This document shows positions 43,922-61,533 of a DNA stretch of 64,000 bases, in pieces. Each line of letters opens with the position of its first letter. The stretch's first letter is position 1. This DNA is from Ensifer sp. LC11 (GTDB taxonomy: Bacteria; Pseudomonadota; Alphaproteobacteria; Rhizobiales; Rhizobiaceae), in NCBI RefSeq assembly GCF_001695835.1, contig NZ_MBSO01000056.1, forward strand, positions 186,001 through 250,000, read 5' to 3'. A program made the position numbers and the translations under genes. The notes under the pieces were generated by a model that worked only from the letters and a program-made list of their open reading frames with translations, was not told where the DNA came from and made no database searches.

Positions 43922-44410
43922 TCAGATGTGGTAGACGTCGATGACCTGGCGGATGTAGTCGTTCTTCAGCACGATTTTCTTGCGCGAGATCACCAGCTCT
44001 TCGCCGCTCTTGCGCAGCGTGACGAAGATGGTGCCGAAGAAATGGTCGGTGACCTTGTAGCGATGGTTGAGGGTGTGAAAGTTGTAGCGGAAATCCACTT
44101 CCTCGCCGCGATCGGCCACGCGCTCGACATTGGTGACATTGTGGCTGGTGCGCGGCTCCGGCGTGGACGCGCCCGACCGTTCGGTCTTGATGCGAAAGAC
44201 ACGATCCTCCAGGCCGTCGCGGCTCGGATAAAAGATCAGCGAGATCTGCGACTGCGGATCCTCGGTCAGTTGGTCGTCGTCGTCCCAGGCCGGCATCCAG
44301 TAGCTGACGTCAGGCGCATAGCAGGTCAGCCATTCGTCCCATTGCCGGTCGTCGAGCAGGCGCGCTTCGCGGTAAAGGAAGGCGCAGGCGGCGTCATAGG
44401 AGATGCTCAT
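43922..44410 (-). CDS. benB: Benzoate 1,2-dioxygenase small subunit
   Basis: This 162-residue beta subunit of the ring-hydroxylating dioxygenase family contains [20 protein letters not shown] and [10 protein letters not shown]. It forms the structural half of the oxygenase with BenA, overlapping that gene's stop by 4 bp. Confidence 0.94.
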
Positions 44411-45765
44411 GCGACCGCTCCCTTCTTCTCAGAGGCGAGTGCTGCGCGCATCACCTTTGCCCAATATTCGTGCTGGCGGACGAACAGGCCTTCGTCCTCG
44501 CTACGCTCGCCCGAAAGCAGCGGCTCAAGGCCCATCCGCTTGGCGTTCTCATCCGGACCGTCGATCCAGAGCGGTGCGCCGCGCGACAGGTCGTTCCAGA
44601 GCGCGGTGATACCGGCATAGCCCTGCTGGCAGGCGCGGAACTCCTCAAGATCGTCAGCGGTGCCCATGCCGGAGACGTTGAAGAAATCCTCATATTGGCG
44701 GATACGCAGCGTGCGATCGGCAGCGCTTTCGCCCTTCGGCGCGAAGCAGAAGATGCTGATCTCGGTCTTGTCGACGCTGATCGGACGGGTCACGCGGATC
44801 TGGGTGCTGAACTGGTCCATCAGGAACACGTTCGGGTAGAGGCAGAGATTGCGCGTCTGGTTGACGATGAAATCAGCCTTCACCTCGCCGACACGCGCCT
44901 TGATCTCCTCGCGGGCGTGGAAGACCGGCCGGACCTCGGGGTTCATGGTGTTGGTCCAGAGCAGGATATGGCCGTTGTCGAAGCCGTAGACGCCGGCAAT
45001 CGAACGGCTCCAACTGCTGGCGTCGACCGCCTTGGTGCCCTCTTCGTTGCGGCGCCCCATGGTGGCGGCATAGTTCCAGTGCACGGAGCTGACGTGATAG
45101 CCGTCGCAGCCGTTTTCCATCTGCAGCTTCCAGTTCCCGTCATAGATGTAGGAGGAGTTGCCGCGCAGCACTTCGAGGCCGTCCGGTGCCTGGTCGACGA
45201 TCTGGTCGATGATGACCTTCGTTTCGCCGAGATAGTCTTCGAGCGAGGGGACGTCCGGGTTCAGACTGCCAAAAAGGAAGCCGCGATAGCTCTCGAAACG
45301 GGCGACACGCTTCAGGTCGTGCGAACCGTCTTTCGCAAACTGCGGCGGATATTGCGTCGTCTTCTCGTCCTTCACCTTCAGAAGCTTGCCGGTGTTGGAG
45401 AAGGTCCAGCCATGAAACGGACAGGTGAAGCTGCCCTTGTTGCCGTGTTTGCGGCGGCAGAGCATGGCACCGCGGTGGGCGCAGGCATTGATGACCGCAT
45501 GCAGCTCACCCGATTTGTCGCGGGTGATGACGACCGGCTGCCGGCCGATATAGGTGGTGTAATAGTCGTTGCTCTCGGGGATCTGGCTCTCGTGGGCGAG
45601 ATAGACCCAGTTGCTTTCGAAGATGTGCTTCATCTCCAGCTCGAAGAGATCTTCGTTGGTGAAGATATCGCGGCGGCACCGGAATGTGCCGGCCTCATGA
45701 TCGTCCTCGACTGCCGTGGCGAGCAGGTGGTCGAGGGCTTGGGCTTTGTCGATAACTGCAGACAT
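44407..45765 (-). CDS. benA: Benzoate 1,2-dioxygenase large subunit
   Basis: This 452-residue catalytic subunit starts [15 protein letters not shown] at 45765 after GGGAGAAG. It has a Rieske centre ([11 protein letters not shown], then CPFHGWTF) and the mononuclear iron site in DGYHVSSVH near residue 212. It hydroxylates benzoate to the 1,2-cis-diol. An upstream extension to 45813 has no family match. Anthranilate or toluate analogues could also be substrates, but linkage to catABC and benDK supports benzoate. Confidence 0.94.
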
Positions 45766-45862
45766 GGTTCTTCTCCCGCAAACGGCGCGCCGCATTCGGC
45801 CTGGCGATTGCAACGATGTCGGTGGTCAGGGGCGGTGGCTCATCCGGCCGCCGCGAAAAGGA

Positions 45863-46801
45863 TCAGGCGGCGGCGCGCTTGCGCTGCTCGTTGATCTGGT
45901 TGTCGACGCCATTCACCAACGAGGTCAGGTGGATGTCGAATTCGATCTCGGCGAAGGGGCCGGAAAGGCCGTTCGCCTTGATGCTCGCCTCGTCGGTCCG
46001 CTCGGTAACATCGGGCACCAGCCCGTCGCGGGTCGCATAGGCGAAGTCGTCGTTGACCAGCGGGTCGCCGGCGATGTTGATCTGGGTCGTCAGCTTGCGA
46101 TGACCGTCGGCGCTGATGAAGAAATGGATATGCGCCGGGCGCTGGCCGTGACGGCCGAGCGCCGAAAGCAGCTGCTCCGTCGGGCTTCCCGGGGGGACGC
46201 CGTAACCATGCGGCACGATACTCCGGAACTTGTAACAGCCCTTGGCGTCGGTGACGATCGTGCGGCGCATGTTGAACGGCGCCTGCACGCCGGTCGGGTC
46301 GAAATGCGAATAGAAGCCGCGGGTATCACAGTGCCAGACCTCGACGGTTGCACCTTTCAGCGGCTGGCCATCGGCATCATAGACAGTGCCGTGCATGATC
46401 AGCGGATGGCCGTTGGTGTCGCGGCCGTCATCGAGCCGGGCGAAACCTTCCGATGCCGGTGCACCGGCGACGTATAGCGGGCCCTCGATCGTGCGCGGCG
46501 TCGGGTTCTTGATACCGAGTTCCTCGTCAATCGCGTCGAGACGTTCGTCGAGGAAGTGGTCCAGGCCGAGGCCCGGCGAGATCAGGCCGGCCTGGCCGGC
46601 AGCGCCGATCTCGTTCAACCAGGCGATGCCCGTCCAGTATTCGTCCGGGGTGATGTCCAGATCGTCGATCGCCTTGAACAGGTCCGACATCAGCCGGTGC
46701 ACGATCTGCTTGACGCGCGGGTTGCCGCCATCCTTGTCGAGACCGCTTAAGATCTTCAGGAAATCCTGGGTTTCCGGCTTGTCGAAAATCTTCACGCTCA
46801 T
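45863..46801 (-). CDS. catA: Catechol 1,2-dioxygenase
   Basis: This 312-residue intradiol dioxygenase starts MSVKIFDKPETQDFLKIL. The ferric-iron ligands are visible: Tyr in TIEGPLYVAGAP, Tyr in PHGYGVPPG, and the two His of RPAHIHFF. It opens catechol to cis,cis-muconate. It is located between catC and benA in the same transcription unit. Confidence 0.95.
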   Translation of the reverse strand: MSVKIFDKPETQDFLKILSGLDKDGGNPRVKQIVHRLMSDLFKAIDDLDITPDEYWTGIAWLNEIGAAGQAGLISPGLGLDHFLDERLDAIDEELGIKNPTPRTIEGPLYVAGAPASEGFARLDDGRDTNGHPLIMHGTVYDADGQPLKGATVEVWHCDTRGFYSHFDPTGVQAPFNMRRTIVTDAKGCYKFRSIVPHGYGVPPGSPTEQLLSALGRHGQRPAHIHFFISADGHRKLTTQINIAGDPLVNDDFAYATRDGLVPDVTERTDEASIKANGLSGPFAEIEFDIHLTSLVNGVDNQINEQRKRAAA

Positions 46802-46876
46802 GATATTTCCTCCACTTGGATTGTCTTGAAAGCGGGTGCCGCCTGCCAACCTCCCGGCAGCGGCACGGACAAAATT

Positions 46877-47167
46877 CTAGCTATCGTTCTCACGGACCGA
46901 CGATGGGTGCCGAAGCAGCGGCGTCACCTCGATCTCCATGAACTTGAAGAGCGGCAGACCGGATAAAATCTCGTGCAGTTCCGCATTGTCCTTCACATCG
47001 AAGACGCTGTAGTTCGCGTACTGGCCGGCGATCCGCCAGATATGCCGCCACTTGCCGCTCTGCTGCAGCGCCTGTGAATAGGCCTTTTCCCGGGCGATGA
47101 TCTCGGCCGCCTGCTCGGTGGGGAAATCATGGGGGATGCGAACGTCCATTCTGACGTGAAACAGCAT
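46877..47167 (-). CDS. catC: Muconolactone delta-isomerase
   Basis: This 96-residue protein starts MLFHVRMDVRIPHDFP, the normal N-terminus of CatC, and has the usual decamer-forming length. It moves the double bond of muconolactone to give the enol-lactone used by PcaD. The gene starts 10 nt after catB ends. Confidence 0.95.
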   Translation of the reverse strand: MLFHVRMDVRIPHDFPTEQAAEIIAREKAYSQALQQSGKWRHIWRIAGQYANYSVFDVKDNAELHEILSGLPLFKFMEIEVTPLLRHPSSVRENDS

Positions 47168-47177
47168 CGTCCACTCC

Positions 47178-48359
47178 TCACTTCGCAACGCTGATCGTCT
47201 TGCGCAGCCCGTCGCGCGCAAAGAACTTCAGTCGATCTTCGTCGAGTTCGATCCCCAGCCCTGGTCCATCCGGCACCGTCAGTTCGAACTCGCTGTAGTC
47301 GAGCGGCGTCGCCAGGATTTCCTCGGTCAACAACAGCGGCCCGAAGAGTTCCGTGCCCCACTGCAGATTGGCGAAGGTGGAAAACACATGGGCTGACGCC
47401 ACCGTGCCGATGGCACCTTCCAACATCGTGCCGCCATAGAGTTCGATGCCGGCAGCATCGGCGATCGCCGCCACACGCTGCGCATTGAAGAGACCGCCGC
47501 TCTGCTCGATCTTGACCGCAAAGACGTCGGCGCCTTTGCTCTTGGCAATTTCGAAAGCCGATTCAGGCCCGGTGAGGGACTCGTCCGCCATCAGCGCCAC
47601 CGGGAAGCGACGGACAAGGCGACCGAGTGCTGCGGTCGACGCGACCGGCTGCTCGACCAGTTCGCAACCGGCATCGGCCAGTGCCGCCATGCCGTAGGCG
47701 GCCTCGAATTCGCTCCAGGCCATGTTGACGTCGACGCGCACCGCGCCACGGTCACCAAGCGCCCGTTTGATCGCGGCCACATGGGCGATGTCATCTTTCA
47801 GCGGCTTCGCGCCGATCTTCAGCTTGAAGATCCGATGGCGGCGAAGGCCGAGCATCGTCTCAGCCTCGGCGATGTCCTTGGCGGTATCGCCTGACGCGAG
47901 CGTCCAGGCGACCGGCAGGCGCTTGCGCAGCGCTCCGCCCAGGAGTTCGCCGACCGACAGACCATGGCGCTTGCCGTTGGCATCGAGCAGTGCCGTTTCC
48001 ACCGCGCATTTGGCGAAGCGGTTTTCCTTCACCGCCTTGCCGAGACGCGCCATCAGCGCCCGAACGCGGGTCGCGTCCTCGCCGAGCATCAGCGGCGCAA
48101 AATAGGTATCGATCGCCAGTTTCATGCTTTCCGGGCTCTCGCCGCCATAGGCGAGCCCGCCGATCGTCGTGCCTTCGCCGATGCCGACCGTGCCGTCGCT
48201 GCAATGGACCTTCACCAGCATCAGCGTCTGGCCGGTCATGGTCGCGACCGAGAGCTTGTGCGGCCGAATGGTCGGCAGATCGACCAGCACCGTCTCGACC
48301 CGTTCGACGACGGGGAGGAAGGTTGCTGACGGTGCGATGGGTGCAAGGGTCGTGTTCAT
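47178..48359 (-). CDS. catB: Muconate cycloisomerase
   Basis: This 393-residue enolase-superfamily enzyme has the catalytic Lys pair in FKLKIGAK, metal ligands in VRVDVNMAW, VEQPVAS and ADESL, and the second catalytic Lys in VKIEQSGG. It closes cis,cis-muconate to muconolactone. It is the first gene of the operon, with the CatR site just upstream. The ATG at 48359 is preferred; the 14-codon extension runs towards the operator. Confidence 0.94.
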   Translation of the reverse strand: MNTTLAPIAPSATFLPVVERVETVLVDLPTIRPHKLSVATMTGQTLMLVKVHCSDGTVGIGEGTTIGGLAYGGESPESMKLAIDTYFAPLMLGEDATRVRALMARLGKAVKENRFAKCAVETALLDANGKRHGLSVGELLGGALRKRLPVAWTLASGDTAKDIAEAETMLGLRRHRIFKLKIGAKPLKDDIAHVAAIKRALGDRGAVRVDVNMAWSEFEAAYGMAALADAGCELVEQPVASTAALGRLVRRFPVALMADESLTGPESAFEIAKSKGADVFAVKIEQSGGLFNAQRVAAIADAAGIELYGGTMLEGAIGTVASAHVFSTFANLQWGTELFGPLLLTEEILATPLDYSEFELTVPDGPGLGIELDEDRLKFFARDGLRKTISVAK

Positions 48360-48415
48360 GGCGTGACTGTGCGCCGCGCCCTGTGCTGCGTCCAACACCA
48401 AATAGGTTCGCTACG

Positions 48416-48430
48416 ATACCTTTATGGTAT
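48416..48430. promoter_or_regulatory. CatR/BenM-type operator (ATAC-N7-GTAT)
   Basis: ATAC at 48416-48419 and GTAT at 48427-48430 with seven bases between match the known binding consensus of the muconate-responsive LysR regulators CatM, BenM and CatR exactly; the inner bases (CCTTTATGG) are also largely symmetric. It sits in the catB/catR divergent gap and overlaps a TATAGT (48428-48433) that fits a catR -10, so CatR should repress itself here and activate catB with muconate bound. Confidence 0.8.
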
Positions 48431-48509
48431 AGTGTGGCAAAGATTGCGCTTATTCATGCAGTTGCCGCACCGCAACATACCGCAATGATAGGCAAGTGAG
48501 GGCCATAAC

Positions 48510-49451
48510 ATGGATCTGCGCCAGCTTCGCTACTTCGTCGCCGTCGCCCGTGAGCGCAATTTCACCCGTGCCGCCGAGATGCTGCACATCGCCCAACCGC
48601 CGCTCAGCCGACAGATCCAGCTTCTTGAGGAGGAACTGGGCGTGCCGCTCATCATCCGCGCAAGCCGCCCCGTGCGGCTGACGGAAGCGGGCCGGTTGTT
48701 TTACGAGCAGTCGCTGCAGGTTCTCGGTCGAGTCGAGCAGATGGTGGAAGCCACGCGCCGTGTCGGGCTCAACCAGAACCGCGTTCTCTCGATCGGCTTC
48801 GTCGCCTCCACCCTCTATGGCGGATTGCCGACGCTGGTGCGCAAACTGCGCCAGAACGCGCCGGAACTCGACATCCGCCTGCTGGAGATGGTGTCGGTGC
48901 AGCAGATCGAGGCACTGAAGGAAGGCAGGATCGATGTCGGCTTCGGCCGGCTTCACCACAGCGATCCCAATGTCGTCGGCATCCTCATGCGTGAGGAGCG
49001 CCTTGCCATGGCTATACCCCAGGGCACGCCCTTGGCCGAGGAAACATCCCCCCTGCCCTTGGGCGCGCTCGCCGGGCAGAAACTCATCGTCTACCCGAAG
49101 GAGCCACGCCCCAGCTATGCCGATCATGTGCTGAGCCTGCTTCACGCCCACGATGTGCACCCGGCCGAAGTGCATGAGGTACGCGAGATCCAGAGTGCCC
49201 TTGGCCTCGTCGCCTCGGAAGCCGGCCTTTGTATTGTGCCCTCCTCCGCGCGCCAGGTGCGCTCAGATGTCCATTACCGCATGATCGAGGGGGAGCGCGC
49301 GACCTCGCCTGTCATCCTCAACCACCGGGTCGGTGACAATTCACGCTACATCGTGCTGATCAAGCAGCTGATCGAGGAAATGTATGCGGAGAACCCGCCC
49401 TGGCTCGGCCTTGAGCACAATCTCCCAATTCGGCCCGCCTTCGTTAAGTGA
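48510..49451 (+). CDS. catR: CatR-like LysR-family activator
   Basis: This 313-residue regulator starts MDLRQLRYFVAVARERNFTR. Its winged helix-turn-helix spans residues 18-40 (AAEMLHIAQPPLSRQIQLLE), followed by a periplasmic-binding-like effector domain. The family (CatR, CatM, BenM) responds to cis,cis-muconate. It is divergent from catB across a matching operator and overlaps the convergent TIM-barrel gene by 8 bp. Confidence 0.88.
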   Translation: MDLRQLRYFVAVARERNFTRAAEMLHIAQPPLSRQIQLLEEELGVPLIIRASRPVRLTEAGRLFYEQSLQVLGRVEQMVEATRRVGLNQNRVLSIGFVASTLYGGLPTLVRKLRQNAPELDIRLLEMVSVQQIEALKEGRIDVGFGRLHHSDPNVVGILMREERLAMAIPQGTPLAEETSPLPLGALAGQKLIVYPKEPRPSYADHVLSLLHAHDVHPAEVHEVREIQSALGLVASEAGLCIVPSSARQVRSDVHYRMIEGERATSPVILNHRVGDNSRYIVLIKQLIEEMYAENPPWLGLEHNLPIRPAFVK

Positions 49452-50325
49452 CCAAGTCCGGCATTCGCGCCCCGGTCATCCTGCTATCCGAGGCGTCGGC
49501 GCTCTCGGCCCATAGCTCCTGCACCATTTGCCGAAGCACGAGTGCCTCCGCCCACCGATCCGTGGAGTCCTCGCCGTCCGCCCCGGTGATCGCATAGGGT
49601 CTGGGGCCGAGCTCACAGGTCATGACCAATTCAGCATCTTCAGCGGCGCGGGATCGCCAGCTGCGAAAGCCATAGTCCCACCAGTCGCGAAAGAGGTCGA
49701 CCCAGGGGCGATGCTGCGGAAAGGACATTTCGATCTGGATCTGCTGGCATGACCCGATGCGCCCGTGGAACGCCTGAGCGTTTTGGAGGATGCGGCGGAT
49801 CTGATCGTGGCTCTCGCCTTCGACGGGAAAGGCGAACTCGCGGCCGACCAGATAGTGCGAGAGATCGGCGAGCAGCGGCAGGTCGGGTCGCCGGTCGAGC
49901 AGATCGAGCGTGAACAGAAGATCGCTGGTAATGCGGTGGCGATGGGTTTCGATGTAGGCGGGAACACCGGCCTCTTCGGCGAGCCGCATCCACGCATCGA
50001 GAAGCGGCAAGCAATCCTGGACCCGGCGCAGACGGACATCCGCCTGCAGGTCGATGTGACTGACCGGAAACTCGCTCGCCAGTTCCAGCGTCAGGCGGAG
50101 ATCCTCGACACTCCTCGGGAAGCAGACGCCTTCGACCTTCAGACCGGTGCCCCGAATCACTGCGTTCAGAAGTTCGACATCACGGCGGTTGGTGTAATGC
50201 GCGCTGATGCCGTCGAACCCCGCCTCGACAATATCAGTGATGTTGTCTTCGAGGCTGCGCTCGTAGCCGTCCGCGTGCCGGCGCTCCATCGCCCAGAGCG
50301 ACTGAAAGACAAGCAGTTTCTGCAT
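49444..50325 (-). CDS. TIM-barrel sugar isomerase/epimerase-like protein
   Basis: This 293-residue protein has a xylose-isomerase-like TIM-barrel fold (EAGFDGISAHYTNRRDVELL; AYIETHRHRITSDLLFTLDL; LLADLSHYLVGREF), with likely metal-binding Glu and His residues in YIETHRH, LADLSHY and CELGPRPYA. It is the last gene of the hydroxylase cluster, and its ATG shares a base with the reductase stop (TGATG). It could act on the hydroxylated product, for example as an isomerase or dehydratase. The substrate is unknown. Confidence 0.75.
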   Translation of the reverse strand: MQKLLVFQSLWAMERRHADGYERSLEDNITDIVEAGFDGISAHYTNRRDVELLNAVIRGTGLKVEGVCFPRSVEDLRLTLELASEFPVSHIDLQADVRLRRVQDCLPLLDAWMRLAEEAGVPAYIETHRHRITSDLLFTLDLLDRRPDLPLLADLSHYLVGREFAFPVEGESHDQIRRILQNAQAFHGRIGSCQQIQIEMSFPQHRPWVDLFRDWWDYGFRSWRSRAAEDAELVMTCELGPRPYAITGADGEDSTDRWAEALVLRQMVQELWAESADASDSRMTGARMPDLVT

Positions 50326-51530
50326 CAGGCGGCCCGCGCGCTTTTCAGCAGCGCCTTGAGATTCGCGCCGGGATCGGCGAGCACGGCAGGGTCGGGGCCA
50401 ATGCCAGCGGCAATCAGCATTTCCGCCAGCTTGATATCCTTGGCAAGAGCATTGCCGAGACCAAGGCCCGCCGCGGCAACGAGACGTCCGCCGTCCAAGT
50501 AGAATTCGAGCTCGCCGCCGTCGAGCTGGCGCGTCACACTTTGATGGTCCAGCTGCGGCAGGCCCGCCACCTGCAGGCCGAGATCGTACTGATCGGTCCA
50601 GAACCAGGGGATGGCGGCAAAGGCCTCCTTGCCGCCGGCCATGTTCCGCGCTGCGGTCTCCGCCTGATTGCGCGCATTGCGCCAGCTTTCAAATCGTACA
50701 TGCCCGCCACCCGGCTGAGCCACTGCCGCGCAATCGCCGGCGGCAAAGATAGCGGGGTCGCTGGTGCGAAGAAAGGCGTCGGTCAGGATGCCGTTGCCGG
50801 TGGCGAGCCCTGCCGCCTCGGCAAGTCCGACGTCTGGCAGAACGCCGATCGCCGCAACGACGACATCGGCGGGCACCGCGCTGCCATCCGCAAGGCGTAC
50901 CGCATTATCGGTGATCTCGGCGATACCCTGACCGAGATGAAACGCAACGCCCTCTTGCTGATGCCGCGCATGGAGTTTGGTGGCAAAGCGCGGGGGAACT
51001 GCGCGTCCAAGCGGCTTCGGTGCCGCCTCGATAACGCTAACGGTTATACCCTTGCCGCGCAGCACCGCCGCCAGTTCCATGCCGATCAGCCCGCCGCCGA
51101 TGATGGCGACGCCTTTTCCTGATTCGGCACGCGAGAAGATCGCCGCCGCGTCGGCATAGGTGCGGAAGTCAAGCGCGCGCTCGGCGCCAGGGCATGTCAG
51201 TCGTCTCGGGCGCGCACCGGTCGCCAGCAACAGCTTGTCATAGGCGAGTCTTCGCCCGTCGCTTAAGGCGACGGACCGGGCAGCCGGGTCGAGCCTCAGC
51301 GCAGAAACACCCTGGAGATAGTCGATGCCGGCAGCCTGAAGAGCCGCTGCACCGCAGATCGGCTTCATCTGCACCGCACCATTGAGTGGCTTCGACAACG
51401 GCGGGCGCTCATAGGGCAAATGCGGTTCCGTGCCGGCGAGCGTGACGCTGCCGGCAAAGCCCGCCTCGCGCAGTGCAAAGGCGGCCCTTGTGCCGGCTTC
51501 GCCGGCGCCGATGATGACGATGCCGTCCAT
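50325..51530 (-). CDS. FAD-dependent ferredoxin reductase (Rieske oxygenase partner type)
   Basis: This 401-residue flavoprotein has an FAD motif IVIIGAGEAGTRAAFALRE at residue 3, an NAD(P)H motif VAIIGGGLIGMELAAVLRG near residue 145, and the C-terminal reductase domain (FWTDQYDLGLQVAGLP) of BphA4/CamA-type enzymes. These reduce [2Fe-2S] ferredoxins. The Rieske ferredoxin at 52783-53106 is the obvious partner. The start at 51530 gives the correct N-terminus. Confidence 0.86.
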   Translation of the reverse strand: MDGIVIIGAGEAGTRAAFALREAGFAGSVTLAGTEPHLPYERPPLSKPLNGAVQMKPICGAAALQAAGIDYLQGVSALRLDPAARSVALSDGRRLAYDKLLLATGARPRRLTCPGAERALDFRTYADAAAIFSRAESGKGVAIIGGGLIGMELAAVLRGKGITVSVIEAAPKPLGRAVPPRFATKLHARHQQEGVAFHLGQGIAEITDNAVRLADGSAVPADVVVAAIGVLPDVGLAEAAGLATGNGILTDAFLRTSDPAIFAAGDCAAVAQPGGGHVRFESWRNARNQAETAARNMAGGKEAFAAIPWFWTDQYDLGLQVAGLPQLDHQSVTRQLDGGELEFYLDGGRLVAAAGLGLGNALAKDIKLAEMLIAAGIGPDPAVLADPGANLKALLKSARAA

Positions 51531-51645
51531 GGCTTGCTTGCTCCATCGATCATAGTTGGAGCGGGAGGCGGGCGGAAACCGCACGCACTTTGCCTCACCC
51601 CGCTCAAGAAAAGGTGGCCGGCGCAGGCAGGAGAAATGCGCCGGC

Positions 51646-51751
51646 CTACAGCGCCGCGCGTCTTATCAGACGCGCAAAGGGTCGCTGTAGAACTTTGAAT
51701 TCCTGCATGTTTTTGACCTTTGATCGGCTACGATCAAAGGAAACATGCAGG
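51646..51751. repeat. RIME1-type 106-bp intergenic element
   Basis: This 106-bp element has two adjacent palindromes. The first has outer arms CTACAGCG (51646-51653) and CGCTGTAG (51683-51690) and an inner stem GCGCGTCT (51656-51663) and AGACGCGC (51668-51675). The second has outer arms CCTGCATGTTT (51702-51712) and AAACATGCAGG (51741-51751) and an inner stem CCTTTGATC (51717-51725) and GATCAAAGG (51732-51740). Length and two-palindrome layout match RIME1, the Rhizobium-specific intergenic mosaic element. It lies 7 nt after the binding-protein stop inside the hydroxylase operon and may stabilise or terminate its message. Confidence 0.85.
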
Positions 51752-51758
51752 AGGAGGA

Positions 51759-52703
51759 TCAGTTGCGGGCCGCGTAGTCGGCCATATTCTCAGGCGTAAC
51801 GAGCTCGAAGGGAACCCAGACGTTCTTCTCGACGGTTTCGCCACGCACGAGCGAGACGGCGGCATCGACCGCACTTGCCGACTGTCCCTTGGCGTTCTGG
51901 AAAACGGTCGCGTCTAGACCGCCGGCGGCCATAGCGGCGAGCCCGTCCTGGGTCGCGTCGATGCCGACGATGATGACGTCGTCCATCGACACGCCGGCGG
52001 CCTTCAGCGCCTGGATGGCGCCAATCGCCATTTCATCGTTGTTGGCAAAGACCACGTCGATCGGCCGGCCGGCCGTGATCCAGTTGGTGGTGAGGTCCAT
52101 CGCATTGGTGCGCGTCCAGGCGGCCGACTGCTCGTCGGCGATGGTGGCGCCCTTGCAGTCGCCGGCAGCCAGCGTCTCCTTGAACGACAAGGTGCGGTCA
52201 CGCGAGGCCTGGTGGGCGAGGTCGCCCATCAGGATATAGACCTGGGCATCACCCGCCTTGCCCTTCTCCTTGAGCAGCGAACAGGCGGCCTCGGCTCCGA
52301 GGCGGCCAGAGTCCGTCTCCTTCGAGCCGACATAGGCCTGCTTTTGCGGCAGCTTGCCGAGGTTCTCAGGCTCGAGATTGAGATAGACGAGCGGAATGCC
52401 CGCTTTTTCCGCCGCTTCACTGATGCCTGGCGCGGCCGAGGTATCGGTCAGCGTCATGATGATCGCATCGACGCCCGCCGCGATGAAGTTGTTCACCTGG
52501 TTGAGCTGCTTGGAAATGTCCGTCTGGGCGTCCTCGATCTGCACCGTGGCGCCGTTGACTTCTGACGCGCGGGCGTTGATGCCCTCGCGCAGCAGGGTCT
52601 GGAAGTTGTTGTCGAAGCTCTGCATCGACACACCGATGGTTTCTGCCGAGGCAGCACTTCCCATCAAGGCGGCAAGCGCTGCCGCCAGGTACATGGATTT
52701 CAT
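51759..52703 (-). CDS. Sugar ABC substrate-binding protein (RbsB-like), no transporter alongside
   Basis: This 314-residue periplasmic binding protein has a signal peptide (MKSMYLAAALAALMGSAASA, cleavage near residue 20) and a type I periplasmic binding fold (IGVSMQSFDNNFQTLLREGI; VDVVFANNDEMAIGAIQALK; VGIDATQDGLAAMAAGGLDA). This family binds ribose, xylose, inositol and AI-2-like ligands. No permease or ATPase gene accompanies it, so it uses a transporter encoded elsewhere or feeds a sensor. Confidence 0.88.
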   Translation of the reverse strand: MKSMYLAAALAALMGSAASAETIGVSMQSFDNNFQTLLREGINARASEVNGATVQIEDAQTDISKQLNQVNNFIAAGVDAIIMTLTDTSAAPGISEAAEKAGIPLVYLNLEPENLGKLPQKQAYVGSKETDSGRLGAEAACSLLKEKGKAGDAQVYILMGDLAHQASRDRTLSFKETLAAGDCKGATIADEQSAAWTRTNAMDLTTNWITAGRPIDVVFANNDEMAIGAIQALKAAGVSMDDVIIVGIDATQDGLAAMAAGGLDATVFQNAKGQSASAVDAAVSLVRGETVEKNVWVPFELVTPENMADYAARN

Positions 52704-52782
52704 AATTTCCTCCCAATGGGTGCCGGATCACCCGAGCGCATTCCGGGGGCCCCGCGGGCCCGGTCAATGCTGGTGGCCGGTC

Positions 52783-53106
52783 CTAGCCGAGGGCCACGCG
52801 GACCTCGCCGTTGACGATTTCGGCGGGATAGGTCTTCAGGTTCTCGCAGGCCGGAAGCCTTATGGCCTCGCCGGTGCGATAGTCGAAGGCGCCGGAATGC
52901 TTGGGACATTCCACCTCGTAGTCCATGACCAGCCCATCGGCGAGATGGATCGCCTCGTGGGTGCAGAGACCGGCGGTGCAATAGACGCTGTCATCAGGGC
53001 CGCGGTAGATCGCGTAGGTGCGCCCAGCATGGTCGAAGCGGATCGCTCCCTCCTGTTCGATGTCGTCCAGTTTGCAGGCTGGTACCCAGGTGATCACGTT
53101 GCTCAT
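52783..53106 (-). CDS. Rieske-type [2Fe-2S] ferredoxin
   Basis: This 107-residue protein has the two Rieske ligand boxes: CTHEAIHLADG (CxH) near residue 48 and CPKHSGAFDYRTG (CxxH) near residue 67. This is the size and layout of the ferredoxins of multicomponent oxygenases. It is encoded between the membrane hydroxylase, whose stop it overlaps by 4 bp, and the binding protein, and would carry electrons from the FAD reductase to the hydroxylase. Confidence 0.9.
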   Translation of the reverse strand: MSNVITWVPACKLDDIEQEGAIRFDHAGRTYAIYRGPDDSVYCTAGLCTHEAIHLADGLVMDYEVECPKHSGAFDYRTGEAIRLPACENLKTYPAEIVNGEVRVALG

Positions 53107-54137
53107 TCAGCTGCCTCCCCGATCGTGTTGCGTGCCTTGCGGGCTGCGAGTTTTTCCTTGCGTTTGCGGTATCGCTCCTGCATCCGCGCCTCGCCTTCCT
53201 TGGAGCCGTCGTGCCAGGTGCCGAACCAGCGGTCGAGCGGGATCAGCGCGTCGCCGTAGTTCACCTCGAAATACTTGTGGTGCAGGTAATGCGCATAGGC
53301 ATGGCTATCGACCAGCTTGCCCTCGCCGACCTCGACCTTGTCGAAACCGACATGGCCGGGAATGGCGCCGAAGCCCGCATAGTGAAGCTGGTAGAGCATC
53401 AGGATCGGGTTTGACGGCAGGATCAAGTGATAGAAAGCCGTTGCGAAATAGAGCAGGTGCTCGACCGGATGCATCGACAGCGACGACCACGGCGACGGGT
53501 TCACCGAATTGTGGTGGACCGAATGCACCCACTTGTAGAGCAGCGGCGTATGGATGAGCCGATGGATGCAGAAGAAATGGAACTCGTGGATAACAGGCAC
53601 GACGAGCGCGACAACAGCAAGCGTCCAGGGATTGTCGGCGAAGGCGAGCCACGGCGCATAGCCATTGGCGTAGGCCCAGAGCATGGCGACCTCGACGGCC
53701 GTCCAGATCGTTACACCTGACAGAAAGGTGCGCAGGATGTTGTCGAGGTTCTGGCTCTCGAACCAGAAGGCCTTGCTCTTCTGCTCCGCTGGAAACTTGC
53801 CGTTGTACTTGAAACGGTTTTCCTGCCGCTTCAGCACATAGAGGTGCAGTTCGAAGGCGCCGTAGAACAGGAAGACGCAGACGGCGTTGACCGCGTAAAG
53901 CCAGGCGATCCAGCCGAGGCCCAAAGTCTGCATCGTCTCGATCGGCGGAATGACCCAGGCCCAATAGGCAACCGCCGAGGCCGCAAAGATCGCATTCCAC
54001 GGAAAGAAGTAGTGCGGCAGCCACTTCAGGAGTGCCAGAACCCGGGGCGGAAAGGCAAACAGCGGCGCCGTCTCGATCGGCTGGTTCGGCGCCCAGTCGC
54101 CGCGCTTGTTGCGCGTTCCATACTTCAGATCATCCAT
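53103..54137 (-). CDS. Membrane di-iron hydroxylase, sterol desaturase/fatty acid hydroxylase family
   Basis: This 344-residue integral membrane protein has about four to five transmembrane segments and three histidine boxes that bind the di-iron centre: HEFHFFCIHRLIH near residue 185, HSVHHNSVNP near residue 208 and HAYAHYLHHKYFEVNYG near residue 280. The family hydroxylates or desaturates sterols, fatty acids, carotenoids and quinone side chains. GGGAGGAAG precedes the ATG at 54137. It heads the operon and is followed by its ferredoxin and reductase. Confidence 0.87.
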   Translation of the reverse strand: MDDLKYGTRNKRGDWAPNQPIETAPLFAFPPRVLALLKWLPHYFFPWNAIFAASAVAYWAWVIPPIETMQTLGLGWIAWLYAVNAVCVFLFYGAFELHLYVLKRQENRFKYNGKFPAEQKSKAFWFESQNLDNILRTFLSGVTIWTAVEVAMLWAYANGYAPWLAFADNPWTLAVVALVVPVIHEFHFFCIHRLIHTPLLYKWVHSVHHNSVNPSPWSSLSMHPVEHLLYFATAFYHLILPSNPILMLYQLHYAGFGAIPGHVGFDKVEVGEGKLVDSHAYAHYLHHKYFEVNYGDALIPLDRWFGTWHDGSKEGEARMQERYRKRKEKLAARKARNTIGEAAE

Positions 54138-54190
54138 GACGCTTCCTCCCGGCGGACCGCGTGCGTTCCGCAAAACTCACTGAGGAAGGA

Positions 54191-54198
54191 GAGCGCTC
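54191..54198. promoter_or_regulatory. Possible LacI-type half-symmetric operator
   Basis: GAGCGCTC, a CG-centred palindrome, lies 54 nt before the hydroxylase ATG. LacI-family regulators often bind CG-centred palindromes and one is encoded just upstream. A second palindrome, TTTGATCAAA (54292-54301), overlaps the end of the LacI gene region. Neither is demonstrated. Confidence 0.3.
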
Positions 54199-54306
54199 CT
54201 GGCGCCGTTTTCCGGTCCGGTTCCTCCAAAGAACCCCGGCCTCCTTCTTGATAAAAATCTAGCAGGCGGCGTTCTGGACGGCGAAGGCTTGTTTGATCAA
54301 ATCAGA

Positions 54307-55308
54307 TCAAAGGCTCTCGGCGGTGATGGTGACGAAGCGGATGGGTGCCTTGTCCGGCTCCATCTCGGAAAGCCCGATCCGGCGCAGGATGAGGTCGAGC
54401 GCGCGGCGAGCCTGCGCCTCGGGCGCCTGGTCGAGCACGACGTCCATGACGCCGTCGCCGAGCGCCTTGCGGGTATAGTCGGTCAACTCATGGCCGACGA
54501 AGAAGATTTCCTTGCCGCGTGGATGCCGGCGCAGCACGTCGATCAGCGCCGCGTTTGCGCCGCCTGCATTATAAAGCCCGACCATGTCGGGATACGTCTC
54601 AAGCGCCGATCGCAGTGTTTCGGCGCCGTAGTGCTCCTCGTCGCGGGTGAAGCCCAGCCACTGAAACCGGCGCTCGCCCGGATGTTCCCGGAAATAGTCC
54701 GAGAAACCACTCAGACGATCACGATGGACCTGATAGATCGGATGGCAGAGCGCGACGACGGGGCCGGTCCGGCGTGCCATGCGCGCGATGAAGAGCGCCG
54801 CCGTTCGTCCCGCGGCGTGATTGTCGATGCCGACGAACTCCCCCAGTTTCTCCGATGCCCGCGTGACGACGTGAATGACAGGCACGCCGCGCGCGACCAC
54901 GGCTTCGACGGCGGCGCTGATCAAGGGATGGTTAGGCACCGCAAGGATCAGGCCCGCGCGCGGCGTCTCGGTCGCATCAATCCGCCTGGCGATCTCCTCC
55001 GGCTTCATCTCCTCGGTGAAGCTGCGATGCACGACGACGAGAGGGTCAAGCGTCTCGGCGATCCGCTGGAACGCCTGGGACAGACGGCGATAGAAGGTCG
55101 TCTCGGGACGCACCATCAGCACGTCGATCCGCAGCAGCCCGCGATGGGCATCGGGAAGCGTGCGCGGATAGTTCAGCGTCCGCGCCGCAACGACCACCTT
55201 TTCGACCAGTTCCGGCCGAACGCCGCCGCGCCCGTTCAGAACCCGCTCGACGGTCGCGGTCCCGACGCCTGCAAGCTCGGCAATGTCGCGATAGTTCGGC
55301 TTGCTCAC
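54307..55308 (-). CDS. LacI-family transcriptional regulator, GTG start
   Basis: This 333-residue protein has the N-terminal LacI helix-turn-helix (DIAELAGVGTATVERVLNGR) and a periplasmic-binding-like effector domain (GLILAVPNHPLISAAVEAVV; FVGIDNHAAGRTAALFIARM). The start is the GTG at 55308 with GAGGGAAG upstream. It lies directly before the hydroxylase cluster in the same direction and most likely regulates it, with a sugar-like effector. Confidence 0.87.
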   Translation of the reverse strand: MSKPNYRDIAELAGVGTATVERVLNGRGGVRPELVEKVVVAARTLNYPRTLPDAHRGLLRIDVLMVRPETTFYRRLSQAFQRIAETLDPLVVVHRSFTEEMKPEEIARRIDATETPRAGLILAVPNHPLISAAVEAVVARGVPVIHVVTRASEKLGEFVGIDNHAAGRTAALFIARMARRTGPVVALCHPIYQVHRDRLSGFSDYFREHPGERRFQWLGFTRDEEHYGAETLRSALETYPDMVGLYNAGGANAALIDVLRRHPRGKEIFFVGHELTDYTRKALGDGVMDVVLDQAPEAQARRALDLILRRIGLSEMEPDKAPIRFVTITAESL

Positions 55309-56209: not shown

Positions 56210-57343
56210 TCATGCGGCAGCGGCCTGCTGCTCGCGAAGGAAGCCGGAGATGCGCTGCAAACCTTCACGAAGAATGCTTGCGTTGTTCGCGTAGCCGATC
56301 CTGAGGTTACCCTCCATGTCCATCGCGCTGCCGGGCGTCAGCATGACGCCGGTACGCTGAAGCAATTTCAGGCAGAACGCCTCGGAGGTGATCGGCAGGT
56401 CGTATTTCAGCAGCGCCGTCGTGCCCGACTGCGGCTTGACCCAGGAGATCAGCGGTTCGCCCTCCACCCAGTCGGAGAGAACCGCGAGATTGGTGCGGGT
56501 GATGCTCTGACTGCGGGCAAGGATCTTATCCTTGTTTTCAAGGGCGATCGCCGCGAAATGATCGTCGAGCATGCCGACGCTGATGGTGTTGTAGTCGCGG
56601 TGAACGGAAACGGCCTGGATCAATTCGGGCGGCGCCACGATCCAGCCGAGGCGCAGGCCGGCAAGGGAAAAGGTCTTCGACATGCTGCCGGTGCTGATGC
56701 CCTTTTCGTAGAGGTCGGCAATCGAGGCCGTCAGGCCGTCGCCCTCCTGGTCGGTGCCGCGATAGACCTCGTCTGAGAGGATCCAGGCGCCACAGGCGCG
56801 CGCGATCGAGGCGATCTTTTCGAGATAGTCGCGATCCATCAGCGCGCCGGTCGGGTTGTTGGGATTGTTGATCGCGATCAGCTTCGTGCCGGGGATCGCG
56901 AGGCGCTGCAACCGCTCTAGGTCGGGCAGAAAGCCGGTCTCTTCCGTCAGTTTCAAGATCTGCGTATCGGCGCCGTAGCTTTCCGGGATCGAATAGTGCT
57001 GCTGGTAGGTCGGCAGCACCGAGATCACCCTATCGCCCGGTTCCACGAGCGTCTCATGCACCAGCGCATTGGCACCGATCGCGCCATGGGTGGTGACGAC
57101 GTTTTCGATCGTCTGCTTCGCATAGAGGTTTGCGATCAGACCGCGCAGCCGTTCGGAGCCCTCGATCGCGCCATAGGTCAGCTTCAGCGGCAGCAGTTCG
57201 GACAGGATCGTATCCGTCTTGCCGGCCATTTCCAGGAGTTCCGCCACGGTCAAGGATTCGACGCAGGTCTCGGCGAGGTTCCATTCACAATGGTTCTCAT
57301 AGCGGTTCATCCAGATTTCGACGCCGAAGTCGCGGATTTTCAT
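56210..57343 (-). CDS. Class I/II pyridoxal-phosphate aminotransferase
   Basis: This 377-residue aminotransferase has a PLP-binding Lys in SMSKTFSLAGLRLGW near residue 229, the NNPNNPTGAL motif near residue 160 and SDEVYRG near 190. The substrate is unclear; the family includes aspartate, tyrosine and capreomycidine-synthase-like enzymes. It is divergent from an XRE-cupin gene that probably regulates it. Confidence 0.85.
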   Translation of the reverse strand: MKIRDFGVEIWMNRYENHCEWNLAETCVESLTVAELLEMAGKTDTILSELLPLKLTYGAIEGSERLRGLIANLYAKQTIENVVTTHGAIGANALVHETLVEPGDRVISVLPTYQQHYSIPESYGADTQILKLTEETGFLPDLERLQRLAIPGTKLIAINNPNNPTGALMDRDYLEKIASIARACGAWILSDEVYRGTDQEGDGLTASIADLYEKGISTGSMSKTFSLAGLRLGWIVAPPELIQAVSVHRDYNTISVGMLDDHFAAIALENKDKILARSQSITRTNLAVLSDWVEGEPLISWVKPQSGTTALLKYDLPITSEAFCLKLLQRTGVMLTPGSAMDMEGNLRIGYANNASILREGLQRISGFLREQQAAAA

Positions 57344-57537
57344 GCGAAGGTCCCTTCGATCATTTGAGACGTGGCTTGGAGAATGCGTGCAGTTTCCAAG
57401 CCACGCTCGTTGAGCATTGCCGTTTGCTGTGACATGAACCAGTCATGCCGGCACGACTTCGCAGGCGCACTCCGTCGCTGTCGGAGGCCCCGGAAATGGC
57501 TGTGGCATTTGGTGGTTTGTCCCTGTAGAAGGACATT

Positions 57538-58107
57538 ATGAGCAATATATTGCACAGTCAAGATCGATCCGACGTTTTGGCCCACGTCGCCGAAAATCTC
57601 AGGCGGATCCGCCTGGCATCGGGGTTGAGCCAGACGGCATTGGCAAAGGCGTCCGGCATCAGCCGTCGGATGATCGTCGCGGTCGAGGGTGGCGATGCCA
57701 ATATCAGCCTCTCAAGCCTCGACAGCCTGGCGGCAGCCATGAATGTCGGCTTCGTCGATCTGGTCAGAGACCCGTCGCGCCATTCTCGCGACAACATCGA
57801 CGCGGTAACCTGGCGCGGCCAGCAGGCGGAAAGCGAAGCGCGGCTGCTTGCTTCCGCCCCCGCCGCCAGCGAGGCCCAAATGTGGCTGTGGTCGATCGCG
57901 CCCGGCGAGCGCTATGACGCCGAGCCCGACCCGCAAGGCTGGCACGAGATGCTGTTGGTGACGGAAGGAACGCTGACGCTCGAGCTTGGCGGCGATCGCA
58001 AGTGCTACGCAAGCGGCGCGTTCACGGTCTATAGCTCGGCGCAGACCTATTCCTACGTCAATGACGGCGACGACGTCGTGAGGTTCGTCCGCAATGTCAT
58101 CTCGTGA
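57538..58107 (+). CDS. XRE-family regulator with cupin sensor domain
   Basis: This 189-residue protein has a Cro/C1-type helix-turn-helix (GLSQTALAKASGISRRMIVA, residues 30-49) and a C-terminal cupin (WLWSIAPGERYDAEPDPQGW; HEMLLVTEGTLTLELGG). Such regulators often control amino acid, polyamine or amine metabolism, in keeping with the divergent aminotransferase. AGAAGGAC precedes the ATG at 57538. Confidence 0.86.
   Translation: MSNILHSQDRSDVLAHVAENLRRIRLASGLSQTALAKASGISRRMIVAVEGGDANISLSSLDSLAAAMNVGFVDLVRDPSRHSRDNIDAVTWRGQQAESEARLLASAPAASEAQMWLWSIAPGERYDAEPDPQGWHEMLLVTEGTLTLELGGDRKCYASGAFTVYSSAQTYSYVNDGDDVVRFVRNVIS
57542..57553. promoter_or_regulatory. Palindrome at the start of the XRE-cupin gene
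   Basis: GCAATATATTGC is a perfect 12-bp palindrome covering codons 2 to 6 of the XRE-cupin gene, extended to a near-perfect 18-bp repeat by TGA and ACA on either side (57539-57556). Its place over the start suggests autorepression. It is AT-rich in a GC-rich setting. Confidence 0.5.
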
Positions 58108-58692: not shown

Positions 58693-61323
58693 TCACCACT
58701 TGACCCGAAGGCCGATGTTGCCTTCGAGCACGTCGATCTTTTCGCCACCGAGATTGGTGGTGTAGTCGGCCGTGACATAGAGGCTTGCTGTTTCCGACAG
58801 CTTCGCGACCAGACCGCCGCCCAGTTCCAGCGCCGTTCCGCCCGTTTCCGTGACAATCGGATCCGTGCCGAAGGTCACGCGCTGGTCGGCGTCGAAATTG
58901 TGCCAGAGGTTGGCCTTCAGGTAAGGCTGGAAGGTTGTCGTCTCGGCGATCACTTCCCCTTGCAGCCGGAAGCCCAGCCGTCCGGTCACAGCATTGTCGC
59001 CGTCGAACTTCACGGTTGAAAACGCATCGCGCTGATCGTCAAGCGAGAGATGCTGCCAGATGATCTGCGCCTGCGGCTCCAGCGTCCAGTTTTCGCCGAG
59101 GGCAATCGGATAACCGGCTTCGAGCGAGGCGGTGACGCCGGTGCCATCGACCTCGACGCCGCTGCCGCCGATCGAGCGGGCGTCGCCGTCAAACCACGTG
59201 CCCATGAGCACGGCGTCGAGATACCAGCCACCGGGGCCAATATGCGTCCAGTAGCCGCCCAAACTGTTGGCCCTGACATCGATCTCGCCGACATGGAGGT
59301 TGTTCCAGCCGACCGCCTGCCCGGTGATATCGCCATCGGCACGCGCGTGACTGAAGAACACGCCGACGCGGTCGTGATGGCCGCCTTCCGTTTCCCAGCC
59401 GAAAAGATCCTGACCGATTTGGAAGCCCAGCAGATTGCCATCAAAGCCGGGATCGACGCTCCCCTTCCATTGCAATTCCGCCTTCTGGCCGAAGACGCGG
59501 CCCCAGCTCGCCGTCAAAGCGCCGGCGCCGTCGAGCAGGGACTGCTCGCCGCGCCGCTCATGGAAGGTGCCGAGGCTCGAAAGCGCCAGATACTCGGCGA
59601 TCGGCGGGACAGCCGAATAGGTCGCCACTTCGACACGGTAGAGCGGCACGATCTCGACGGCGGTCGGTATGCCACCGATGTCCACGATTACGGTTTCGGG
59701 CTCCACAGGTGTCGCGCCATCGGACGGCGGCGCCACGCCCGGGCCTGGCGGAACGATGACGATTTCCGGTTCGACGACCGGCGGCACCGTCGGCGGGACT
59801 TGCGGCGGTACGACGATGATCGGCGGCACGATCTCGGGCGGCGGCGTTATCGGCGTCGGCACGACCACGAGCGTCGAGCGCAAGTAGAAATTCTGCTCTG
59901 ATCCGGCTGTCACTCCGCCCCTGTAGAGCAAGTATTCGTGGGCCCCGGCGGCAACCCGGCCATTGAGCGCGAAGGCGCTTGCGGCCGACGTCGCGCCGTT
60001 GGCGAGTTCGACGACCATGATGCCGTTCGCAAGCGTGTCGGCACCAGCGCCGCCGGCGTTGACGACACTGATGGCCGTGGTGCCCGTCGCCGTACCGCCT
60101 GATACGACCAGCCGATCGGATGCAGAGGAGTCGTCGCCCAGCACGGTATCAAGCACCAACAGGCCACTGTTGCCGCTGTAGTTGCCATTGACCGTGAAAC
60201 GATCGCTTGTGCTTGCGCCGACGTCTGACAGGTCGATGGTGCCGCTGTTGTTGACCGTGACCAACTGGCCGATCGTGGCCGCCGAGATCGCCGCGTTGGT
60301 ACCGCCGCCGCGAAGGGTGCTGGCGGCATCGACATTGAGCGTTCCAGTTCCGGTGCCGCTGTCGCCGAGGGTCAGATTGCCGTCGAAGGTCAGCACGCTG
60401 CCAGCACGGGCATCGATGTTTTCCCAGCTTTGGAAGCGGGCCACGCCGCCTGTCTGGACGTCTTCCAATGTCAAGCCGTCGACGCCCAGGCCACCTGTCA
60501 GCGCGTCGGTCCCCGCGAGGTTGGCGCTGGTCAGATTGCGAAGCGTCGCAATGTCGGTGTCGGCCCCGAGGTCAATGCTGCCCTCGATGGTGCCGCCACC
60601 GTCCCACGTGAACGTATCCGTCCCGAAGCTCATCAGCACGTTGCCGCCGACAGCCCCGCCGGTCACCGTCACGCTGTCCGTGCCGCCGCTGACGCTGATA
60701 TTGCCGCCGATGCTGCCACCGGAGAGAATGATCGTGTCGTTGCCGAAGCCCGTGACCAGGTTGTTGTCGATGGTGCCGCCCGACATGGCGAACAGGTTAT
60801 CGTCGAGCAGCATGTTGACGCGGCCGATGCGCCCGCCGGTCATCACCGCGCTGTCGCCGTCGTCGAAGAAACCGACAATGTGGCCCCCCGACATGAAGAA
60901 CGTATCGAGACCGGTACCCTGGTTCAGTGATTGCAGCGTGCCGCCGGTCATCGTGAAGCTGTCCCTGCCATCGCCCTGCTGGAGATTGGCGCTGATCGCT
61001 CCGCTGTGGATCTCGACGGTGTCGACACCTGCGCCGAAGGTTATGGCGCTGGTGATCGTTCCCGTGCCACCGGCCGGCAGAGTGAGCGTATTATTGCCGC
61101 CAAGATCCGTAAATCCGGCCGAGGTACCGCTGTCGCACACATAAATGTCATCGCCCGCAGTCGGCACGAAGGTGCACGCCGCGGCAGCCGGTAGGCTCTG
61201 AAGACAGAGGCCGACTGCCGTAGAAGCGAGCAGGGCGAGTTGTCGGGTCGAGAAAAGTCTCGTGGCCGTCAAACAGTGAGCGGGAAAGAAGGCGGATTCG
61301 TCCGCTGTGGCCTCGTGATGCAT
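58693..61323 (-). CDS. Autotransporter with beta-helix passenger and outer-membrane barrel
   Basis: This 876-residue protein has an extended signal peptide with a hydrophobic core ASTAVGLCLQSLPAAAA near residues 30-46. The passenger carries repeats built on the pattern SGGxI or TGGxI (MTGGTLQSLNQGTGLDTFFM; MSGGTIDNNLVTGFGNDTII), expected to form a beta-helix. A Pro/Val-rich linker (VVVPTPITPPPEIVPP) precedes the C-terminal barrel of about 300 residues, ending in VKW, an aromatic-last outer-membrane signal. GGGGGAG precedes the ATG at 61323. It is likely a surface adhesin. No protease motif was seen. Confidence 0.88.
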   Translation of the reverse strand: MHHEATADESAFFPAHCLTATRLFSTRQLALLASTAVGLCLQSLPAAAACTFVPTAGDDIYVCDSGTSAGFTDLGGNNTLTLPAGGTGTITSAITFGAGVDTVEIHSGAISANLQQGDGRDSFTMTGGTLQSLNQGTGLDTFFMSGGHIVGFFDDGDSAVMTGGRIGRVNMLLDDNLFAMSGGTIDNNLVTGFGNDTIILSGGSIGGNISVSGGTDSVTVTGGAVGGNVLMSFGTDTFTWDGGGTIEGSIDLGADTDIATLRNLTSANLAGTDALTGGLGVDGLTLEDVQTGGVARFQSWENIDARAGSVLTFDGNLTLGDSGTGTGTLNVDAASTLRGGGTNAAISAATIGQLVTVNNSGTIDLSDVGASTSDRFTVNGNYSGNSGLLVLDTVLGDDSSASDRLVVSGGTATGTTAISVVNAGGAGADTLANGIMVVELANGATSAASAFALNGRVAAGAHEYLLYRGGVTAGSEQNFYLRSTLVVVPTPITPPPEIVPPIIVVPPQVPPTVPPVVEPEIVIVPPGPGVAPPSDGATPVEPETVIVDIGGIPTAVEIVPLYRVEVATYSAVPPIAEYLALSSLGTFHERRGEQSLLDGAGALTASWGRVFGQKAELQWKGSVDPGFDGNLLGFQIGQDLFGWETEGGHHDRVGVFFSHARADGDITGQAVGWNNLHVGEIDVRANSLGGYWTHIGPGGWYLDAVLMGTWFDGDARSIGGSGVEVDGTGVTASLEAGYPIALGENWTLEPQAQIIWQHLSLDDQRDAFSTVKFDGDNAVTGRLGFRLQGEVIAETTTFQPYLKANLWHNFDADQRVTFGTDPIVTETGGTALELGGGLVAKLSETASLYVTADYTTNLGGEKIDVLEGNIGLRVKW

Positions 61324-61533
61324 CGTCTCCCCCTCGTTCGCAATATCTGACGGTAGAACGGCGCAATCGGCACCCCATTCCCGGTTGCGAATTTCAGCCA
61401 TGGGCTGCGCAATCTGACAACCGTCAAATTTTGGGGTGTGCGCGCCTTAGCGTTGCGCAAAGCGGACCGATGTCTTCGCGATCGCAGAACAGCACAGGCA
61501 ATCTTGTCTGCCGGCCATGTGCGCCTTGGCCGA

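Follow-up and report, generated by a model that had tools for sequence, protein, structure and literature searches.

A six-gene operon of Ensifer sp. LC11 joining a PF04116 membrane oxygenase to a MocE-family ferredoxin is a candidate oxidative demethylase system for O-methylated cyclitols

The stretch of Ensifer sp. LC11 DNA analysed here (the window, 64,000 nucleotides in full) carries a cluster of six genes, all on the minus strand at 49444..55308 in the list of open reading frames (ORFs). In the direction of transcription, they encode a LacI-type regulator, a PF04116 membrane oxygenase, a Rieske ferredoxin, a periplasmic binding protein, an FAD-dependent ferredoxin reductase and a TIM-barrel protein (Table 1). 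The gene ends overlap or are tightly spaced, the oxygenase and ferredoxin genes sharing 4 bases and the reductase and TIM-barrel genes sharing 1, and the cluster is flanked by a LysR gene on one side and by a glutathione-transferase-like gene on the other. With the exception of the TIM-barrel protein, the Pfam domains of all products score over the Pfam cut-offs. The gene cluster recognised in a preliminary description of this DNA is thus real, with its six genes found in place and their families matched by the Pfam scores. Comparison with annotated relatives indicates that translation probably starts at 54137 for the oxygenase and at 51530 for the reductase.

Table 1. Genes and operator of the cluster, in order of position in the window.
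Feature	Position	Strand	Evidence
Divergent xylose-isomerase-like TIM-barrel protein	49444..50325	-	PF01261, weak
FAD ferredoxin reductase	50325..51530 (longest ORF to 51584)	-	PF07992 231.7 bits, PF14759 70.4 bits
Periplasmic sugar-type binding protein, signal-peptide-like start	51759..52703	-	PF13407 179.5 bits
MocE-family Rieske [2Fe-2S] ferredoxin	52783..53106	-	TIGR02377 186.9 bits (cut-off 136.15), PF00355 67.1 bits
PF04116 membrane di-iron oxygenase, proposed O-demethylase	53103..54137 (longest ORF to 54173)	-	PF04116 72.3 bits (cut-off 31)
Near-perfect palindromic operator TTTGATCTGATTTGATCAAA	54292..54311	-	Overlaps LacI stop codon, precedes oxygenase
LacI-family regulator	54307..55308	-	PF00356 43.7 bits, PF13407 67.9 bits

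By the Pfam gathering score (72.3 versus 31), the oxygenase belongs to the FA_hydroxylase superfamily, and it has hydrophobic segments and histidine clusters. In an alignment of 14 rows, ten histidines are invariant (H192, H196, H205, H208, H209, H262, H283, H286, H287 and H309, numbered from the start at 54137) and H187 and H223 are nearly so; the ten would fit a di-iron site and are presumed to bind iron. The ferredoxin shows the Rieske motif C-x-H ... C-x2-H and the reductase two GxGxxG dinucleotide-binding motifs, the latter protein scoring 317.1 bits with the HcaD model, under its cut-off of 450. The electron chain of reductase, Rieske ferredoxin and histidine-rich membrane oxygenase is complete, as had been claimed in the preliminary description. 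No sequence relation was detected between the oxygenase and the mocD-like PF00487 family (BLASTP E value of 0.062, profile comparison probability of 0.7%), the comparator being the family annotated as 'mocD: hydrocarbon oxigenase' in R. etli CIAT 652 and not a verified MocD of a rhizopine strain. The R. etli gene annotated as mocD and a PF00487 protein of the window's own genome belong to one family. With TIGR02377 passed by the ferredoxin and the oxygenase unrelated to the mocD-like family, the electron carriers look Moc-like and the oxygenase does not. The cited part of PMC5789663 reports a nod-box and induction in three Mimosa symbionts for a 'fatty acid hydroxylase' of PF04116 type encoded on the symbiotic plasmid.

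The TIM-barrel protein gave no Pfam match at an E value of 0.001. PF01261 matched it at 0.0013 and reached 6.9e-8 among 21 relatives including that of the window, 19 of the 21 being matched at an E value of 0.5. Seven residues, E126, H128, D154, H157, H187, E199 and E238, are invariant in the 21 rows.

Between the regulator and the oxygenase lies the palindromic operator, for which shuffled windows give a chance expectation of 0.02 matches per window on average. Its core occurs at one place only in the 6.2 Mb genome, allowing up to 2 mismatches, and the exact core TTGATCTRATYWGATCAA was present in 66 of the 193 loci examined, all of them oxygenase loci, although at least 5 of these are places counted twice. 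In L090, L091, L092, L106 and L132, the core stands between LacI and a gene resembling panB (PanB-like), ahead of the oxygenase. The LacI protein is probably the local repressor of the operon, and its regulon is suggested to be strictly local, because the core is unique in the genome and recurs at oxygenase loci. The pair of LacI protein and operator could serve as a biosensor. On pSymA of S. meliloti 1021 (L094, 10611-13489), the LacI gene, oxygenase, ferredoxin and operator are present, the binding protein is a fragment, and neither the reductase nor the TIM-barrel gene was found in the stretch; for these reasons, the function may be missing in this model strain.

Relatives of the operon were collected by scanning species genomes with the oxygenase, which confirmed 516 relatives, and the best 80 loci were kept. 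Seventy of these and three plasmid loci constitute the 73 close loci (group A), fetched by the oxygenase alone and 77-95% identical in it. The other 10 of the best 80, 6 plasmid loci and 3 + 25 loci from further searches make up 44 more distant loci (group B), and 19 loci fall below about 45% identity (group C, of which one, L154, is at 46%). Neighbouring genes were counted within 9 kb of the oxygenase under a 50% coverage rule, and 20 control stretches were taken from group B and C genomes, with none from group A. The locus rows come from related species and are not independent, several contigs end inside the operon, and four places carry two locus ids, none of them doubled in group A. In L131, L140, L142, L143, L150, L152 and L165, the oxygenase match has one internal stop, and their neighbourhoods were still counted.

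In group A, the oxygenase was accompanied by the ferredoxin at 72 of the 73 loci, by LacI at 69, by the reductase at 63, by the TIM-barrel gene at 59 and by the binding protein at 51, and each of these five genes was found in 0 of the 20 control stretches. The co-occurrence of the six genes is not due to chance, and the genes that had been proposed to form one pathway do travel together. The same six genes are found on Shinella and Paracoccus plasmids with other flanking genes. Within the genus of the window, 12 of 16 genomes (its own included) hold an oxygenase of at least 89% identity; of 297 genomes drawn from the family, 46 had a match at an E value of 1e-50, 11 of them at 84% identity or above, and among 385 genomes drawn from the class the oxygenase was matched in 25 at 1e-40. 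In a tree built with 24 of the 73 loci of group A, the window fell within a well-supported 57-row group (support 100/99, midpoint root) that also includes L097, L098 and L109.

One-carbon and inositol genes recur beside the relatives. In 8 of the 73 close loci (L024, L032, L052, L058, L060, L072, L075 and L080, with oxygenases 83-90% identical), a gene for S-(hydroxymethyl)glutathione dehydrogenase (AdhC) begins 1 to 67 bases after the TIM-barrel gene. The copies of L024 and L072 are cut by the contig end, and the 6 copies of full length all score above the TIGR02818 cut-off of 543.95 (577.5 to 723.4). The 9-kb count gives 7 AdhC genes in group A, including L054, which is another dehydrogenase; the eight loci named here leave out L054 and add the two cut copies. 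AdhC was also found in two distant plasmid relatives. Among the 44 loci of group B, a PanB-like gene stands within 9 kb in 27, an IolG-like Gfo/Idh gene in 11, purU in 5 and folD in 2, each being found in 0 of the 20 controls; Fisher's test against the controls gave p values of 1e-6 for PanB-like and 0.013 for IolG-like genes, on rows that are not independent. The IolG counts (6 in group A, 11 in group B) refer to IolG-like Gfo/Idh genes as found by BLAST. The PurU and FolD proteins of L108 pass their models, as do the IolG proteins of both L109 and L098.

The arrangement of these genes was followed in several relatives. In L032, the order is TIM-barrel gene, binding protein, ATPase, permease, Gfo/Idh, oxygenase, ferredoxin, binding protein, reductase, LacI, TIM-barrel gene and AdhC. 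In L109, from the same genus, it is oxygenase, binding protein, permease, ATPase, ferredoxin, TIM-barrel gene, PanB-like gene, IolG, reductase, FolD and PurU, the last truncated where the stretch ends. The row of Gemmobacter fulvus reads oxygenase, binding protein, permease, ATPase, MocE, TIM-barrel gene, PanB-like gene and iolG, and in R. leguminosarum Vaf-108 the oxygenase is accompanied by ABC genes, a Gfo/Idh gene, a mocD-like desaturase, iolE and iolD. The window's own genome encodes an IolD homologue (52%). The three PanB-like proteins scored reached 81 to 106 bits, below the PanB cut-off of 207.55, and a canonical PanB of 310 bits is encoded elsewhere in the window's own genome; both facts make it improbable that the PanB-like protein is the pantothenate enzyme. 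Members of this PanB-related subfamily accompany the oxygenases at L090:9201-9992, L107:9482-10279 and L109:3778-4602, and the subfamily possibly deals with formaldehyde and folate.

For the binding protein, the best solved relative by sequence is 4yo7 (E value of 9.3e-53). No permease or ATPase was found among the ORFs of the cluster, so that the operon itself does not encode a complete ABC transporter. This feature, the operator and the MocE family of the ferredoxin go beyond the preliminary description. Fourteen of the 73 close loci have the ferredoxin and reductase genes with only the binding-protein gene lacking between them. The closest paralogue in the genome, 57% identical (the next being 33%), belongs to the mocD-like locus (G000:C6, L107), where it is accompanied by an ATPase and a permease. 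The ferredoxin and reductase of L107 are likewise 58% and 50% identical to those of the window, the two reductases being of the same general family, whereas L107 differs in its PF00487 oxygenase, its own ABC transporter, a PanB-like gene and a second PF04116 protein. Orthologues of the L107 transporter lie at most 10 kb from window-type operons in L032 and L033 (85%) and in L058 and L060 (88-89%). From these comparisons, the window binding protein likely shares the ABC transporter of L107. We liken this arrangement to that of MocB, which has been combined with an inositol transporter according to the cited part of PMC10107442. As a whole, L107 (8588-19001) contains the mocD-like PF00487 oxygenase, ferredoxin, reductase, PanB-like gene, PF04116 protein, a LacI-type gene and the ABC transporter, and it is possibly a sister demethylase system. 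In L134, L135, L137, L140, L141, L142 and L143, binding proteins directly beside oxygenase relatives match the model of MocB-type rhizopine-binding proteins, NF052284, below its cut-off.

Because one-carbon and inositol genes stand beside the relatives, we read the operon, with moderate confidence, as a LacI-controlled oxidative demethylase for an O-methylated plant cyclitol (pinitol, ononitol, bornesitol, sequoyitol or similar). The MocE family of the ferredoxin, the place of the window in the tree and the orthologues of the L107 transporter near window-type operons also count in favour of this reading. The substrate is deduced solely from the neighbours in relatives, and every reaction is predicted from sequence. 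The binding protein would capture the methyl-cyclitol and hand it over to a sugar-type ABC transporter whose genes lie elsewhere, probably at L107. Electrons would pass from NAD(P)H through the FAD reductase and the MocE-type ferredoxin to the membrane di-iron oxygenase, which would hydroxylate the O-CH3 group, and collapse of the resulting hemiacetal would give formaldehyde and the free cyclitol. Formaldehyde could then be oxidised via glutathione (AdhC) or tetrahydrofolate (FolD and PurU, perhaps with the PanB-like protein). The free cyclitol would enter the inositol pathway via dehydrogenases such as IolG, the TIM-barrel protein possibly acting on a keto-cyclitol, and substrate or product would free LacI from the operator. 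The small, polar, sugar- or polyol-like ligand of the preliminary description agrees with these neighbours, which point to a cyclitol- or sugar-like compound. The formaldehyde and folate one-carbon genes of the relatives suggest that the reaction is likely more specific than a hydroxylation, namely an oxidative demethylation.

Several observations weigh against a methyl-cyclitol as substrate. The window operon itself contains no one-carbon or inositol gene, PanB-like, FolD, PurU, IolE and IolD genes were found within 9 kb in 0 of the 73 close loci, and loci with less than about 45% oxygenase identity are mostly without this gene context. The IolG model was applied to 2 of the 11 IolG-like genes, the TIM-barrel protein carries no proven reaction, and the structure models are of too low quality to help (pLDDT of 51 and 52). 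In the cited part of PMC10033563, alcohol dehydrogenases adjoining the methyl-galactose demethylation genes of marine bacteria proved not to detoxify formaldehyde, so the name of a neighbouring gene is no proof of its role.

The alternative that survives best, although we consider it rather unlikely, is the same demethylase chemistry acting on an O-methylated sugar or a methyl glycoside, with the Gfo/Idh and TIM-barrel proteins carrying out keto-sugar chemistry. The galactose and ribose models (MglB and RbsB) score the window binding protein higher than the rhizopine model does, all under their cut-offs, and the Gfo/Idh protein of L032 comes closest to levoglucosan dehydrogenase (282.5/650, compared with 129.1/355 for IolG, both below the cut-off). 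The latter result and the absence of one-carbon and inositol genes from the window operon make an O-methyl sugar a serious alternative. The poor structure model of the TIM-barrel protein resembles keto-glucoside lyases as well as IolE. A precedent for such a chain is described in the cited part of PMC10033563, where marine Flavobacteriia oxidatively demethylate 6-O-methyl-D-galactose to the sugar and formaldehyde via redox partners, as is proposed for the window operon, except that the oxygenase there is a cytochrome P450 and not a PF04116 protein. What speaks for a cyclitol and against a sugar is that the IolG model is passed by the proteins of L109 and L098, that IolG is 75-89% conserved in L134, L135, L137 and L140, and that iolE and iolD lie near the R. 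leguminosarum relative.

PF04116 proteins usually hydroxylate or desaturate their substrates, and the oxygenase might simply add a hydroxyl group to a small polar compound, without demethylation. This agrees with the 17 of the 44 distant loci which show none of the one-carbon genes sought, and these loci count against the methyl-cyclitol proposal as well; however, AdhC, FolD, PurU and PanB-like genes in the relatives would have no obvious use unless a one-carbon unit were released, and we regard plain hydroxylation as improbable.

The rhizopine mocDEF system acts on an O-methyl cyclitol amine, and O-demethylation belongs to its pathway. In the cited part of PMC10107442, rhizopine catabolism is described as involving mocDEF and mocC. 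The system, known from Sinorhizobium meliloti L5-30 and Rhizobium leguminosarum, resembles the window operon in combining an oxygenase with a MocE-family ferredoxin and an FAD reductase, that of the window being possibly of the MocF type, and a periplasmic binding protein belongs to its wider set. The gene combination is thus not without precedent, and the preliminary description, which knew of no characterised pathway with this set, had overlooked a close characterised analogue. The differences are that genes annotated as mocD belong to PF00487 and the window oxygenase to PF04116, that LacI takes the place of MocR (a GntR protein with an aminotransferase-like domain), and that the binding protein is not of the MocB type, reaching 32.2 bits with NF052284 compared with a cut-off of 420, which also tells against a cyclitol ligand. 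With the MocE feature present and those of MocD, MocB and MocR missing, we rejected membership in the rhizopine system; the locus is real, conserved and coherent, and would work like MocDEF without being a member of it. Catabolism of rhizopine itself (3-O-methyl-scyllo-inosamine), which the ferredoxin and the demethylation step of that pathway might suggest, is thus very unlikely, the more so as the operon occurs in Paracoccus too. Loci with the top NF052284 scores were also considered as a lead to mocDEF; in the six of the seven over the cut-off that were inspected (L122-L127, one stretch ending with the contig), no mocDEF was found by the ORF panel.

Also very unlikely is a lipid or sterol hydroxylase merely placed in a mixed operon, the sense of the automatic annotation 'sterol desaturase, lipid metabolic process' that follows from PF04116 membership: the window oxygenase shares the score and conserved histidines of this fatty acid hydroxylase/sterol desaturase superfamily, but sits amid genes for polar-substrate import, and the binding protein, LacI, an ABC transporter and inositol and one-carbon genes recur beside it, in neighbourhoods in which no systematic search for lipid genes was made.

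Pinitol and ononitol are described as widespread in legumes and as building up in nodules in the cited part of PMC8730688. Among the matches listed in the open-licence literature, none described this operon or genes for pinitol breakdown, nor, rhizopine work aside, bacterial genes for the breakdown of pinitol or ononitol. According to the cited part of PMC5789663, expression of mocDEF homologues, a mocB-like ABC transporter and inositol (iol) genes of Rhizobium mesoamericanum rises in Mimosa root exudate, for which pinitol (145 uM) has the highest concentration of the components listed, and this lends the methyl-cyclitol reading indirect support. Against that reading, the expression concerns mocDEF and was interpreted by the authors as relating to rhizopine. 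More tentatively, and with the balance slightly against it, we suggest a dedicated pathway for the abundant methyl-cyclitols of plants in Rhizobiaceae and some Rhodobacterales, in which a PF04116 protein demethylates a small polar ether and replaces MocD on a MocE/MocF-type chain, and the PanB-related protein of the relatives is a new formaldehyde-to-folate transfer enzyme. If the methyl-cyclitol reading is right, it could explain growth of soil and root-nodule bacteria on pinitol-like legume compounds, and it would turn an operon labelled 'sterol desaturase' into a testable trait in rhizosphere and nodule competition and extend a superfamily assumed to act on lipids to the demethylation of small polar ethers.

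Further genes lie near the cluster. At 43922-49451 of the window lies a benzoate/catechol set, with ORFs that resemble, as read by eye, Rieske dioxygenase subunits, a catechol dioxygenase and a muconolactone isomerase. It also includes a muconate cycloisomerase (TIGR02534, 559 bits) and a CatM/BenM-like LysR gene, the end of which overlaps the TIM-barrel gene by 8 bases. On the other side, a glutathione-S-transferase-like gene (PF14497, 55360-56190) is divergent from the LacI gene, and is followed by an aminotransferase (NF005593, 550 bits) beside an ORF judged by eye to be an HTH-cupin-like regulator (56210-58107), and by a long ORF, autotransporter-like by eye, at 58693-61401.

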